Source: Phycisphaerae bacterium (GTDB lineage: Bacteria > Planctomycetota > Phycisphaerae > UBA1845 > UTPLA1). From it: a stretch of DNA of 64,000 nucleotides. Position 1 is the first letter of the stretch. Every line of letters begins with the position of its first letter. A program made the position numbers and the translations under genes. Below the pieces are notes generated by a model. The model did no database searches and had not been told where the DNA came from. It was given only the letters and a program-made list of their open reading frames with translations. The stretch spans positions 1 through 64,000 of the forward strand of contig JAKLKO010000019.1 of the NCBI GenBank assembly GCA_023150615.1. Reading direction: 5' to 3'. Positions 9,878 through 13,932 of this stretch are shown here, piece by piece.

Positions 9878-10918
9878 TTATCGCGCGTCGCCGGGCGGCG
9901 CGGGGGGCGGTTCCGCCCGCGTCGGGCCATCGGGCAGCGTCGGCTCGACGAAGCGCAAGTCCACGGGATAGCGGCCGTTCCCGTCGTCGAGCACCCAGGT
10001 CCGCACGCTGGGCAGGACCCGGTCGAGCGTCTCCAGCAGGAGGCGCTGGCGGGTGACGTCGGGGGCGAGCCGGTACGAGGCGAGCTGCTGGAGAAAGCTC
10101 GACGCTTCGCCGCGTGCGCGAGCGAGGACCTGCGCGGCGTAGTCGCGGGCCGCCTGCACGCGTTCGAAGGCCTGCGCCCGAGCGGCGCGGATCGCGACGT
10201 CAGCCTCGTTTCCGGCGCGCTGGACGAGGCGCGCGTGGTAGTACCGCGCATCGGTCACGTCATTGAAAGCGGCGATGACGGCCTGCGGCGGCTCGACGGA
10301 CTGCACCGAGACGGACACCAGGCCGATGCCGCAGCCGTAATGGTCCAACCGCCGCTGCATCTGCTCGCGCCCTCGATCGCGCAGATCGACGCGCGCGCCG
10401 GTCAGGAGCTCATCGACCGGCCGGCGCGCGAGCGTCTCGACGAGCACGGCCTGGGCGACGACGCGGACGAGTTCGTCCGGCGCGACGCAGCGCAGGACGA
10501 AGGCGGCCGGATCGGTCACCTGATACTGTACGACGAGCGAGACCTTGAGGATGTTCGTGTCGCCGGACAACATGTCGGTGCGCGGGCTGGCGGTCATGGC
10601 GTCGACGTCGCCGCGGCTGATCCGCTCGCGGGCTTCGGCGTCGAAGCCGACGATGACGCGCCGGATCTGCGTGGTCTGGAGCCTGACGACGTTTCCGAGT
10701 GGCCAGGGCCAGGCGTAATGCGGTCCCGGCGGGACCTCGGCGGCGGTGAGCCGTCCGCCGAAGCGGACGACGGCGCGCTGGTCCGGCTCGACGAAGTAGA
10801 AGCCGCCGGCGAAATACGCGGCGACGGCAAGCGCAAGGATGCGTCGCCGCCAGCGTCGCCACGCGGCGTGGAAGCCGAGCGGTGCGCCGGGGGATCGCGA
10901 TGCGTTCGATTCGCTCAT
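9878..10918 (-). CDS. SPFH-domain membrane protein, HflK-like
   Basis: The product has 346 residues: one N-terminal transmembrane helix (about 27-45), then an SPFH/Band-7 domain starting at FVEPDQRAVVRFGGRL and PPGPHYAWPWPLG, then a long alpha-helical region (about 230-300). HflK with HflC forms a membrane cage around the protease FtsH in Escherichia coli. There is no FtsH gene in this window. It is the last gene of a three-gene run (13932 to 9878), starting 18 bases after the HflC-like gene. Residues KVSLVVQYQVTDPAAFVLR are typical of the family. Confidence 0.8.
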   Translation of the reverse strand: MSESNASRSPGAPLGFHAAWRRWRRRILALAVAAYFAGGFYFVEPDQRAVVRFGGRLTAAEVPPGPHYAWPWPLGNVVRLQTTQIRRVIVGFDAEARERISRGDVDAMTASPRTDMLSGDTNILKVSLVVQYQVTDPAAFVLRCVAPDELVRVVAQAVLVETLARRPVDELLTGARVDLRDRGREQMQRRLDHYGCGIGLVSVSVQSVEPPQAVIAAFNDVTDARYYHARLVQRAGNEADVAIRAARAQAFERVQAARDYAAQVLARARGEASSFLQQLASYRLAPDVTRQRLLLETLDRVLPSVRTWVLDDGNGRYPVDLRFVEPTLPDGPTRAEPPPAPPGDAR

Positions 10919-10936
10919 GGGCCCATGCGCCTTTCG

Positions 10937-11878
10937 TCAGCGTCGTTGCGCGGCCGGCCGGGTCGTCGGCGCGGCGGGAGCGGATGCGCCTTGCAGCCAG
11001 CGGAGGAAGCGGCTCTCCGGTGAGAGCACGAGGACCGTGTTTTCGTCGAACGACTTCGCGTAGGACTCGAGCGAGCGGAGGTACTCGAAGAACTCGGGGT
11101 CCTGCGAATGGGCCTCGCCGAAGATGCGCGTGGCCTCGGCGTCGGCCTCGCCGCGGATCCGCCGCGCGTGCTCGTCCGCCTCGGCGAGGATGCGGACTTC
11201 TTCGCCGCGGGCGGCGGCGCGAATCTTGGTCGCCTCTTCCTGGCCTTCGGCGCGGTACTGCGACGCGATCCGCTCGCGCTCGGCGCGCATGCGTTCGAAG
11301 ACGCTGCGGCGGTTCTGCTCCGGAAAGGCGATGCGCTGAATCTGGAAGTCGACGATCTCGATGCCGAAGTCGGCCCGGGCGCGGGCCTGGCAGCGATCGG
11401 TCACCGCGCGGACGTGCTGCGGCCACTTCCACGACTCGGCCTTGTCGCTGATCAGCTCCGCGAAGGGATGCGCACCGAGCATCGCGCCCAGCTCCGCCAA
11501 GACGAGGTCGGCGAGCCGCTCCTCGGCGCGGTTGGAGTCACGGACCGTCTGGAGGAAGCGCATGACGGCGTGCTCGTCGTTCGGGATGCGCCAGACCGTG
11601 TAGGTGCTGACGACGACGTTCTTCTTGTCCTGCGTGAGGAACTCATCGTTCGGCCGCGACGCCGTCGGCGTCTCGAACATCTGAAGTCGCCGATCGAAGC
11701 GGAGGACCGATTGGATCGGCTCCGGCCACTTGAAGCGCAGTCCGGCGGTCAGGACGGTACTGACCGGACGGCCGAACTGGGTCACGATCGCGACTTCGGT
11801 CTCGTTGACCTGATACGCGAAGGTCGACGCCCACCAGAGCAGCAGCGCCACCAGCACCCATGCGACGATCGAACGCAT
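10937..11878 (-). CDS. SPFH-domain membrane protein, HflC-like
   Basis: The product has 313 residues: an N-terminal transmembrane helix (about 4-22), SPFH domain (VNETEVAIVTQFGRPV, AGLRFKWPEPIQSVLRFDRR), and a C-terminal helical region with the HflC-like stretch MRAERERIASQYRAEGQEEA. A GTG at 11914 would add 12 residues and overlap the upstream stop as GTGA. The ATG at 11878 places the helix at the N-terminus, as in HflC, so I chose it; neither start has a clear ribosome-binding site. It is the middle gene of the permease-SPFH operon. Confidence 0.8.
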   Translation of the reverse strand: MRSIVAWVLVALLLWWASTFAYQVNETEVAIVTQFGRPVSTVLTAGLRFKWPEPIQSVLRFDRRLQMFETPTASRPNDEFLTQDKKNVVVSTYTVWRIPNDEHAVMRFLQTVRDSNRAEERLADLVLAELGAMLGAHPFAELISDKAESWKWPQHVRAVTDRCQARARADFGIEIVDFQIQRIAFPEQNRRSVFERMRAERERIASQYRAEGQEEATKIRAAARGEEVRILAEADEHARRIRGEADAEATRIFGEAHSQDPEFFEYLRSLESYAKSFDENTVLVLSPESRFLRWLQGASAPAAPTTRPAAQRR

Positions 11879-11910
11879 CACATCACCCGAGCGGATTCCG
11901 GCCGCGACGA

Positions 11911-13932
11911 TCACGGCGACGGAATCGGCAGTTCCTCGCGCGCCGCCGGGCGGACCCAGAGTTCCAGCGGTCGACCGCCGGCGCGGTCGACGCGGAGGTA
12001 CTTCCGCACTCGCGGAAGGACCTGGTCCAGCATTTCGTGATAGAGCCGCACGCGCGTCACCTGCGCGAATCGGCGCGCCGCTTCCGACACGCGGCGAAAC
12101 ACGTCCGCCTCCGCGCGAGCCAGCCGGCGCGTGCGGTCGGCCTCGGCCTGCACGGAGATCCGGGCGGCGGCGGCGTTTCCGCGGGCGACGGGGATGAGTC
12201 CCGCGCGGTGGGCGAGGGCCATGTCGATCTGGGCGGCGCGGTCCTCCAGGGCGCTGGCGACGTCTCGGAAGGCGTCATGCACTTCCGGCGGCGCGTGCAC
12301 GTCGAGGAAGCGGAAGTCGTCGATCCGGACGCCGCTTCCGGCGGCATCGCAGTGGCGCTGGAGGACGTCGCGAATGCGCGACTCGGCGGCGGGACGATCG
12401 GTCGTGTAGACGCCGTCGATGGTGGCGCGGCTGAGGACCTCGCGGCAGGCGGCGCGGGTCGCGGCGCGGACGAACCCATCGACGTCGCGGAAACCAAAGG
12501 CGAAATCGAGGAGGCGCTGCGGCTCGACGCTCCAATGCGTCGCGTAGCGGACCGAGGCGATGTTTTCGTCGCCGAGCCACTGCCAGGTGGTCGATTCGAC
12601 GTCGGCGGGCAGCGTGCTCGCGCCGGCGGGTGCGACGCCGAAGACCTCGCGGCGGACGCGCTCGACCGCGATGCGCTGCATCGAGCCGATCGGCCACGGT
12701 CCGGTCCAGTAGAGTCCCGGCGGGACGGGATCGCCGACGCGTTTTCCGAATCTCAGGACGAGACCGCGCTCGTCCGGCTGAACGATGGCGAGGCCGCTGA
12801 GGACATAGGCGCCGAGGACGAGCAGCACGACGACGCGCGTGGCGGCGGACGGGCTCCAGTTCAGCGAGAGCAGGCGGTTTGCGATCGGGGCCAGGCGACC
12901 GGCCCAGCCCTGCCGCAGCAGGCTGGCGGCGCACATCGCAAGGAAGATGATTGCGCCGGCGGTCTTGATCGAGTCCGGCAGGTACGGCTCGTCGAGCACG
13001 CGGATGCCTCGCGCGGGACCCCATCTCGCAGGCCACCGGTCGAGCGCGACGCCGGCCGCGACGGTGACGATGGCGATGCTCGAGAGGTAGACGATGACGG
13101 CGCGGCGTCCGATCTGCCGCAGCAGGACGGCGATCGAGCCGAGATTGGTGGCGGGTCCGACGAGCAGGAAGACGAGCGCTGCGCCGGGGCTGATACCGTT
13201 GGCGATGAGCGCCGCGGCGATGGGCGTCGACGCCTCGGCGCAGACGTAGAGCGGGATGCCGATCGCGAGCATGACGGCCATGGCAATCCACGGGTTCGCC
13301 AGCGCGGGGCTCGCGACCCAGCCGGCGAAATACACGTTGATGGCCGCGGCGATGAGGACGCTGAGGAGGATCCAGCCGGAGATGTCATCGAGCAGATCGA
13401 CGAACGCGAAGCGCAGTCCGTCGCGGAGGCCGCCGCGCGACGAGGCATCGAGTTCGTGCACATGGGTGGCGAGGTCGGGCTCGTCGGTCCGCGTCGGGTC
13501 CGCGGCGTCGGTGGTCGGTCGCCGGCGCTCGATGAGGTTCTGCACGATTCCGGCGACTAGCGCGGTGACGCAGGCGGTGACGGGGCGGACGATGGCGAGG
13601 AGCGGGCCGAGCAGACCGTAGGTGAGCAGGACGGATTGGATGCTCGTCTCGGGCGTCGAGATGAGGAACGAGAGGACCGCGCCCTTGCTCGCGCCGCGCC
13701 GACGGAGCGTCATGGCCGCGGGCAGGACGCTGCACGAGCAGAGCGGCAGCGGCGCGCCGATGAGTGTGGCCCAGACGACGGAGCGCGTTCCGCGCCGACT
13801 GAGCAGCGCAGCGGCCCGACCCCCGCTGAGCCAGGCGTGGAGCAGCGCGGCGATGAGCAGTCCGCCGACAACGAAGATCGCCGCTTCGCGGAGGACGTTC
13901 CAGGTTTCGAGCCAGAATCCGTCGGGCCACAT
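11911..13932 (-). CDS. Permease (DUF318/SO_0444-type) fused to an HflK-like SPFH domain
   Basis: This 673-residue protein joins two families. Residues 1-about 295 form an eight- to ten-helix permease of the DUF318 type (as in ArsP and SO_0444-like metal efflux). It has the cysteine motif LPLCSCSVLP (Cys65, Cys67) with STPETS at about 92, mirrored in the second half by Cys231 in YVCAEASTP and by VGPATNL. More helices follow (about 325-385). Residues 384-660 are an SPFH domain, beginning VQPDERGLVLRFGKRV and PPGLYWTGPWPIG, with the helical tail. The downstream genes are separate SPFH proteins, so the encoded unit has one transporter and three SPFH chains. The transported substrate is inferred only from the family. 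Confidence 0.85.
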   Translation of the reverse strand: MWPDGFWLETWNVLREAAIFVVGGLLIAALLHAWLSGGRAAALLSRRGTRSVVWATLIGAPLPLCSCSVLPAAMTLRRRGASKGAVLSFLISTPETSIQSVLLTYGLLGPLLAIVRPVTACVTALVAGIVQNLIERRRPTTDAADPTRTDEPDLATHVHELDASSRGGLRDGLRFAFVDLLDDISGWILLSVLIAAAINVYFAGWVASPALANPWIAMAVMLAIGIPLYVCAEASTPIAAALIANGISPGAALVFLLVGPATNLGSIAVLLRQIGRRAVIVYLSSIAIVTVAAGVALDRWPARWGPARGIRVLDEPYLPDSIKTAGAIIFLAMCAASLLRQGWAGRLAPIANRLLSLNWSPSAATRVVVLLVLGAYVLSGLAIVQPDERGLVLRFGKRVGDPVPPGLYWTGPWPIGSMQRIAVERVRREVFGVAPAGASTLPADVESTTWQWLGDENIASVRYATHWSVEPQRLLDFAFGFRDVDGFVRAATRAACREVLSRATIDGVYTTDRPAAESRIRDVLQRHCDAAGSGVRIDDFRFLDVHAPPEVHDAFRDVASALEDRAAQIDMALAHRAGLIPVARGNAAAARISVQAEADRTRRLARAEADVFRRVSEAARRFAQVTRVRLYHEMLDQVLPRVRKYLRVDRAGGRPLELWVRPAAREELPIPSP

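Follow-up and report, generated by a model that had tools for sequence, protein, structure and literature searches.

SPFH domes that enclose membrane proteins are already known, and so are the component families of the locus described here. The human dome protein stomatin is located on the cytoplasmic side of the membrane. Stomatin domes enclose aquaporin-1 and UT-B (PMC12407830), a direct precedent for the principle of an enclosed transporter. The arrangement proposed below for a bacterial gene module would likewise be an SPFH dome closing off a patch of membrane that contains transport proteins. However, the cargo of the stomatin domes has no covalent link to the cage and is not a metal exporter, whereas the cargo of the module is covalently fused.

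In Escherichia coli, HflKC encloses FtsH hexamers (PMC12048511). With this complex the module shares the HflK and HflC families, the build of transmembrane helix, SPFH domain and coiled coil, and coiled-coil walls of 82 and 81 residues, respectively. E. coli has a single HflK, which is cargo-less and encloses FtsH, whereas the module has two types of HflK, one of them bearing an exporter. The HflKC cage is a 24-mer ring or dome in which HflK and HflC alternate. An SPFH protein and an integral membrane partner are likewise found in one operon in QmcA-YbbJ and the other SPFH-NfeD pairs, but there the partner is NfeD, without an exporter fusion and without HflC. The exporters themselves are familiar. 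SO_0444 transporters, CDF proteins (YiiP/FieF) and ZntA-like P1B ATPases have the same complete transmembrane units and metal-site residues as the module, but in their stand-alone form they lack the SPFH domain. Genetic evidence exists only for the founding member of the SO_0444 family, in Shewanella, which requires this protein to grow when stressed with Zn or Cu (PMC3219624).

The module bears on what bacterial SPFH proteins do beyond the control of FtsH. Neither "transporter" nor "cation" occurs as a word in the main text of a survey of SPFH proteins in prokaryotes from 2009. No description of a module in which HflK is covalently joined to an exchangeable metal exporter and accompanied by a dedicated HflC and HflK was found in the open-access literature searched, an absence that is weak evidence.

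Gene and domain organisation of the locus

The window is a stretch of 64,000 nucleotides from a Phycisphaerae bacterium (assembly GCA_023150615.1, contig JAKLKO010000019.1). Three genes on its minus strand, to which all coordinates of this section refer, make up the locus. The first (11911..13932) encodes a protein of 673 aa, here called K1, in which an SO_0444/ArsP_1 metal permease is followed by a transmembrane helix, an HflK-type SPFH domain and a coiled coil. The permease domain covers residues 11-335 (12928..13902) and was recognised by NF033936, the model for SO_0444 Cu/Zn efflux transporters, with 316.6 bits (cut-off 300). In Pfam, ArsP_1 (PF03773) matched residues 16-296 (E 6.6e-40), and Band_7 (PF01145) matched residues 383-572 (12217..12786; E 6.4e-15). 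Against the HflK model TIGR01933 the protein reached 121.6 bits and failed the cut-off of 159.4, so that it is HflK-like and not filed as HflK, unlike the CDF- and ATPase-fused K1 proteins scanned elsewhere, which were above this cut-off.

The second gene, hflC (10937..11914, 325 aa), scored 205.9 bits against TIGR01932 (cut-off 134.4). Its GTG at 11914 overlaps the stop codon of K1. The start may instead be the internal ATG at 11878, since homologues align from about this position (alignment A1). The third gene (9878..10918) encodes K2, a second HflK of 346 aa without a transporter, and passed TIGR01933 with 171.9 bits.

The sequence-only reading had placed a permease with the cysteine motifs CSC and Cys231 and an HflK-like domain in one chain, followed by HflC-like and HflK-like genes. 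The present analysis agrees in each respect: both Pfam domains lie in a single 673-aa open reading frame, the cysteines are found as C65-S66-C67 (codons at 13732..13740) and C231 (13240..13242), invariant in the 14 homologous fusions of alignment A3, and both following genes are above the NCBI cut-offs.

Hydropathy analysis of K1 pointed to nine or ten segments in the membrane, with the final one (residues 367-385) abutting the SPFH domain. This corresponds to a predicted transmembrane helix at residues 361-385 (12778..12852) leading into the SPFH domain. The AlphaFold2 model of K1, built from 14 sequences (mean pLDDT 73.5, pTM 0.50), displayed a helical permease part, a helix at residues 361-378, an SPFH fold and a helix of 73 residues; the coiled-coil wall helix was placed at residues 549-638 (12019..12288). 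The best PDB matches in Foldseek were the E. coli HflK and HflC chains (E 1.8e-12), and no convincing solved structure was found there for the permease part. All models in this work are single-chain only, built from 14-17 sequences, with low pTM values (0.50 and 0.45).

Recurrence of the module and exchange of the exporter

In order to follow the permease fusion through the phylum, 294 evenly drawn genomes of Planctomycetota were searched. The fusion, together with hflC and hflK, was present in 12 other genomes of several families, where the loci were read; stand-alone permeases of the SO_0444 family were commoner than fusions in this sample. The search for the fused architecture in other planctomycetes, which the earlier reading had proposed, thus succeeded, and the architecture was also found in other phyla. 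Across the alignment of 14 fusions, identity to the K1 of the window was 33-52% and, besides C65, S66, C67 and C231, many SPFH positions were invariant. In one locus (L063:5953-7947) the SO_0444-family permease carries an extra N-terminal membrane domain that matches the ZIP zinc transporter family; two others (L058 and L064) have a similar layout, with an extra N-terminal membrane domain before the permease.

Other triplets of the phylum sample begin with a different exporter. In two of them (L059 and L061) the first protein is a CDF exporter joined to HflK, and in a third (L060) it is a complete P1B heavy-metal ATPase joined to HflK. A collection of 84,980 species genomes was scanned with an alignment of six module HflC sequences, the diversity of alignment A1 being too great for a scan of this kind. 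The scan returned 80 loci, with 45 CDF-HflK, 15 permease-HflK and 9 ATPase-HflK fusions, and in all 69 cargo-bearing loci hflC and a plain hflK (K2) stood behind the fusion. In six loci the first gene was cut by the contig end and in three it was not visible. The two cargo-less loci, from Caldithrix and Atribacterota, have a plain HflK-HflC pair, neither with a second HflK. As the query was itself the module HflC, the share of 69 in 80 describes an association and not a prevalence or frequency. Carriers include members of Planctomycetota, Bacillota, Eiseniibacteriota, Myxococcota, Lentisphaerota, Pseudomonadota, Verrucomicrobiota, Synergistota, Latescibacterota, Effluviviacota, Armatimonadota, Kiritimatiellota and Acidobacteriota. 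The module is spread over at least a dozen phyla.

The exporter parts have kept the marks of their families. ATPase-type K1 scored 585.6 bits against TIGR01525 (cut-off 346) and retained the CPC, DKTGT and TGE motifs. The motifs H43xxxD47 and H154xxxD158 were conserved in most CDF-type K1 proteins, with L107 deviating. In the CDF fusions the match to the CDF family model, which is 285 positions long, ends near position 200, and HflK replaces the missing soluble C-terminal domain. The structure model of a CDF-HflK protein consisted of six membrane helices matching YiiP, followed by a helix, an SPFH fold and a long coiled coil.

In a tree of 111 HflK-type domains, K1 and K2 were kept apart with one change, the K2 clade (SH-aLRT support 98) left canonical HflK outside, and the cargo type on K1 underwent at least two changes; finer statements cannot safely be drawn from this quickly built tree, in which some branches are long. 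The simplest reading of these sequence comparisons would be one old HflK-HflC-HflK module whose exporter was exchanged over time.

A CDF-type module was also found on a conjugative plasmid of Aquibium oceanicum B7 (NZ_CP018172.1), while the plasmid search for the permease fusion gave no plasmid with the whole fusion. The plasmid surroundings include a two-component system and Nramp; behind the module follow a PPIase, a heavy-metal ATPase, the copper chaperones PCu(A)C and SCO, DsbB and a thioredoxin-domain protein. In RefSeq the Aquibium CDF-HflK fusion is named only "FtsH protease activity modulator HflK". Genes with no other name than this gain a concrete and different hypothesis from the module.

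Wall geometry and a proposed exporter dome

The landmark distance along the coiled-coil wall was exactly 82 residues in every permease- and CDF-fused K1, as in all five canonical HflK sequences, E. coli HflK included. The module HflC had a distance of 81 in 15 of 15 sequences of alignment A1, and 81 was also counted in E. coli HflC. For ATPase-fused K1 the median was 82, with a few deviating rows, and the plain K2 of CDF loci reached up to 87. Such strictness would be expected if K1 had to fit into a ring with HflC, which is an argument for assembly and not a proof of it. The earlier suggestion of a cage built partly from transporter subunits is consistent with these sequence data insofar as the conserved set of K1, HflC and K2 and the strict wall lengths would fit co-assembly.

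K1 and K2 also differ at the residue level. At E. coli HflK position 193, arginine was present in canonical HflK and in most K1 but never in K2 (alignment of HflK domains), so the two proteins are chemically distinct at this site. The residue was not equated with Arg191, the published HflK contact to FtsH, as the published numbering did not match the E. coli HflK sequence used.

The N and C termini of CDF proteins and of P-type ATPases are cytoplasmic. This even N-in/C-in topology, together with the added helix, would place the SPFH domain outside the cytoplasmic membrane, as it is in E. coli HflK (PMC2636767).

We lean, with some caution, towards a reading in which the products of the three genes make up a dedicated SPFH dome that has a metal exporter built into it. 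K1, HflC and K2 would co-assemble into a ring of the HflK/HflC type on the outer face of the cytoplasmic membrane. The exporters would sit at a limited number of ring positions via K1, and K2 would take the remaining HflK positions, because a ring of transporter-bearing subunits alone would be overcrowded. In this way the exporters would be concentrated in one enclosed membrane patch and would push cations, probably of the Cu/Zn type as the exporter family indicates, into the space beneath the dome. The benefit would presumably be a protected or regulated efflux.

The dome is favoured by the occurrence of three unrelated exporter families (SO_0444 permease, CDF and P1B ATPase) in the same HflK-fused place, by the metal-gene surroundings of the CDF module on the conjugative plasmid and by the P-type ATPase gene behind the second triplet type described below. 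The earlier reading had left open whether metal or other solutes would be exported. Metal efflux is now much better founded than from the window alone, given the SO_0444 identity of the permease and the fusion of two other exporter families at the same HflK position, although as a function it stays a prediction from sequence. Several points count against the dome: the K1 of the window scores below the HflK cut-off, the single-chain models have low pTM, in Bacillota carriers, which have no true periplasm, the compartment would be less distinct, and the PPIase gene beside the CDF type is not explained by simple efflux. A wider version, in which an ancient HflK-HflC-HflK "efflux cage" with exchangeable exporters, common to many bacterial phyla, forms a protein-walled compartment outside the membrane that receives the exported metal, coupled in part to PPIase-assisted folding, can be proposed only tentatively and may well not hold.

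These data suggest that certain metal pumps form part of a membrane cage of their own. A cargo fixed covalently to the cage protein, and swapped among three exporter families, tells directly what the cage holds, and with such a built-in cargo the idea of "membrane encapsulation" becomes testable.

The HflK part might instead merely anchor the exporters in an SPFH microdomain, a lateral organisation in which nothing is enclosed. SPFH proteins are widely held in the literature to be microdomain scaffolds, and both the fusion and the gene order would look identical. Nevertheless, a wall length that does not vary by a single residue among permease- and CDF-fused K1 proteins or among the HflC proteins of the module, together with a separate cargo-free HflK that is always kept, fits ring geometry better, and we regard simple clustering as rather unlikely.

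Neighbouring genes, FtsH and further SPFH loci

In about 24 loci from Bacillota, Synergistota, Lentisphaerota, Planctomycetota and others, CDF-HflK has an upstream neighbour that encodes a large PPIase of the parvulin type (550-880 aa) and mostly overlaps it or is at most 60 bases away. PPIase and CDF triplet form a four-gene set, as in L106:2000-4324, L121:2285-4387, L099:1795-4419 and about 20 more loci. Genes for histidine kinases and response regulators were also found near CDF-HflK loci. The upstream PPIase, and the PPIase, metal ATPase, copper chaperones, DsbB and thioredoxin-domain protein behind the Aquibium module, might point to a metal-loading chamber, in which the exporter fills the dome with metal and secreted metalloproteins are folded and loaded with the aid of the PPIase. 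However, no PPIase was found among the listed neighbour families of the permease type, the window included, and we know of no client protein; this chamber is considered unlikely.

ZIP transporter genes follow some of the permease modules. A ZIP-like gene was located directly downstream of the triplet in four loci (L096:7091-7807, L117:7793-8527, L128:3042-3761 and L141:2174-2905), of which two are of the permease type and two have a first gene truncated at the contig end.

The window's genome encodes FtsH at another locus. In E. coli, too, the FtsH gene is not adjacent to hflKC, and none was present in the E. coli hflKC stretch examined. A single-contig chromosome of Latescibacterota and genomes of Thermogutta, Myxococcota and Eisenbacteria carry a separate canonical HflK-HflC pair in addition to the module, and the same appears to hold for one genome of Eubacteriales and one of Synergistaceae. 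In module genomes of the phylum sample (e.g. G058, G103, G045, G169, G139, G179 and G019) there was another HflK, of the canonical kind, that scored above 250 bits. No separate pair was found in the window's own genome, nor in the Desulfosporosinus genomes, which have the module only. As several module genomes keep a separate pair, a dedicated role is, in general, likely from these gene inventories, and independence from FtsH, which the earlier reading assumed, would be plausible.

Alternatively, FtsH could control the amount of exporter, with the HflK domain bringing it to FtsH-HflKC for degradation or protection. HflK and HflC are known FtsH partners, FtsH is encoded in the genome of the window, and in Desulfosporosinus, which lacks a separate pair, the module may have to serve FtsH too. 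Such control could operate without its own hflC and an additional hflK at each locus, and many genomes keep the separate canonical pair, which makes this explanation quite improbable.

A frame error or assembly artefact, which the earlier reading had named as a risk and which is conceivable in a GC-rich region with many carriers that are metagenome bins, has a negligible probability and, like chance, was ruled out, since the fused frame and the two following genes recur in other planctomycete genomes and other phyla. Many assemblies of independent origin contain open fused frames that are uninterrupted by stops and 33-52% identical to the K1 of the window. The permease fusion lies on the single-contig chromosome CP070631 (Latescibacterota), and the CDF-type fusion occurs in isolates, among them Desulfosporosinus metallidurans and Aquibium oceanicum.

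A second triplet was found in the genome of the window (C14:6929-11323, within L009:3894-11323 of G000). It encodes a six-TM domain joined to HflK, an HflC and an HflK with a longer wall, followed by an ABC transporter. The six-TM domain matched no Pfam family, and the wall distance in HflC of this triplet type was 80. Further loci of the type are L152, L154, L155 and L187-L195, and several of them also have an ABC ATPase or permease. In 10 of 12 second-triplet loci a heavy-metal P-type ATPase gene stands directly or closely behind the second HflK, and all four of these ATPases that were scanned were above the TIGR01525 cut-off. By sequence, the second triplet appears to repeat the link to metal, here with an unfused ATPase. 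The same genome encodes two further large SPFH proteins of another kind (567 and 618 aa), which lie side by side at L010 (G000:C33:146497-148671).
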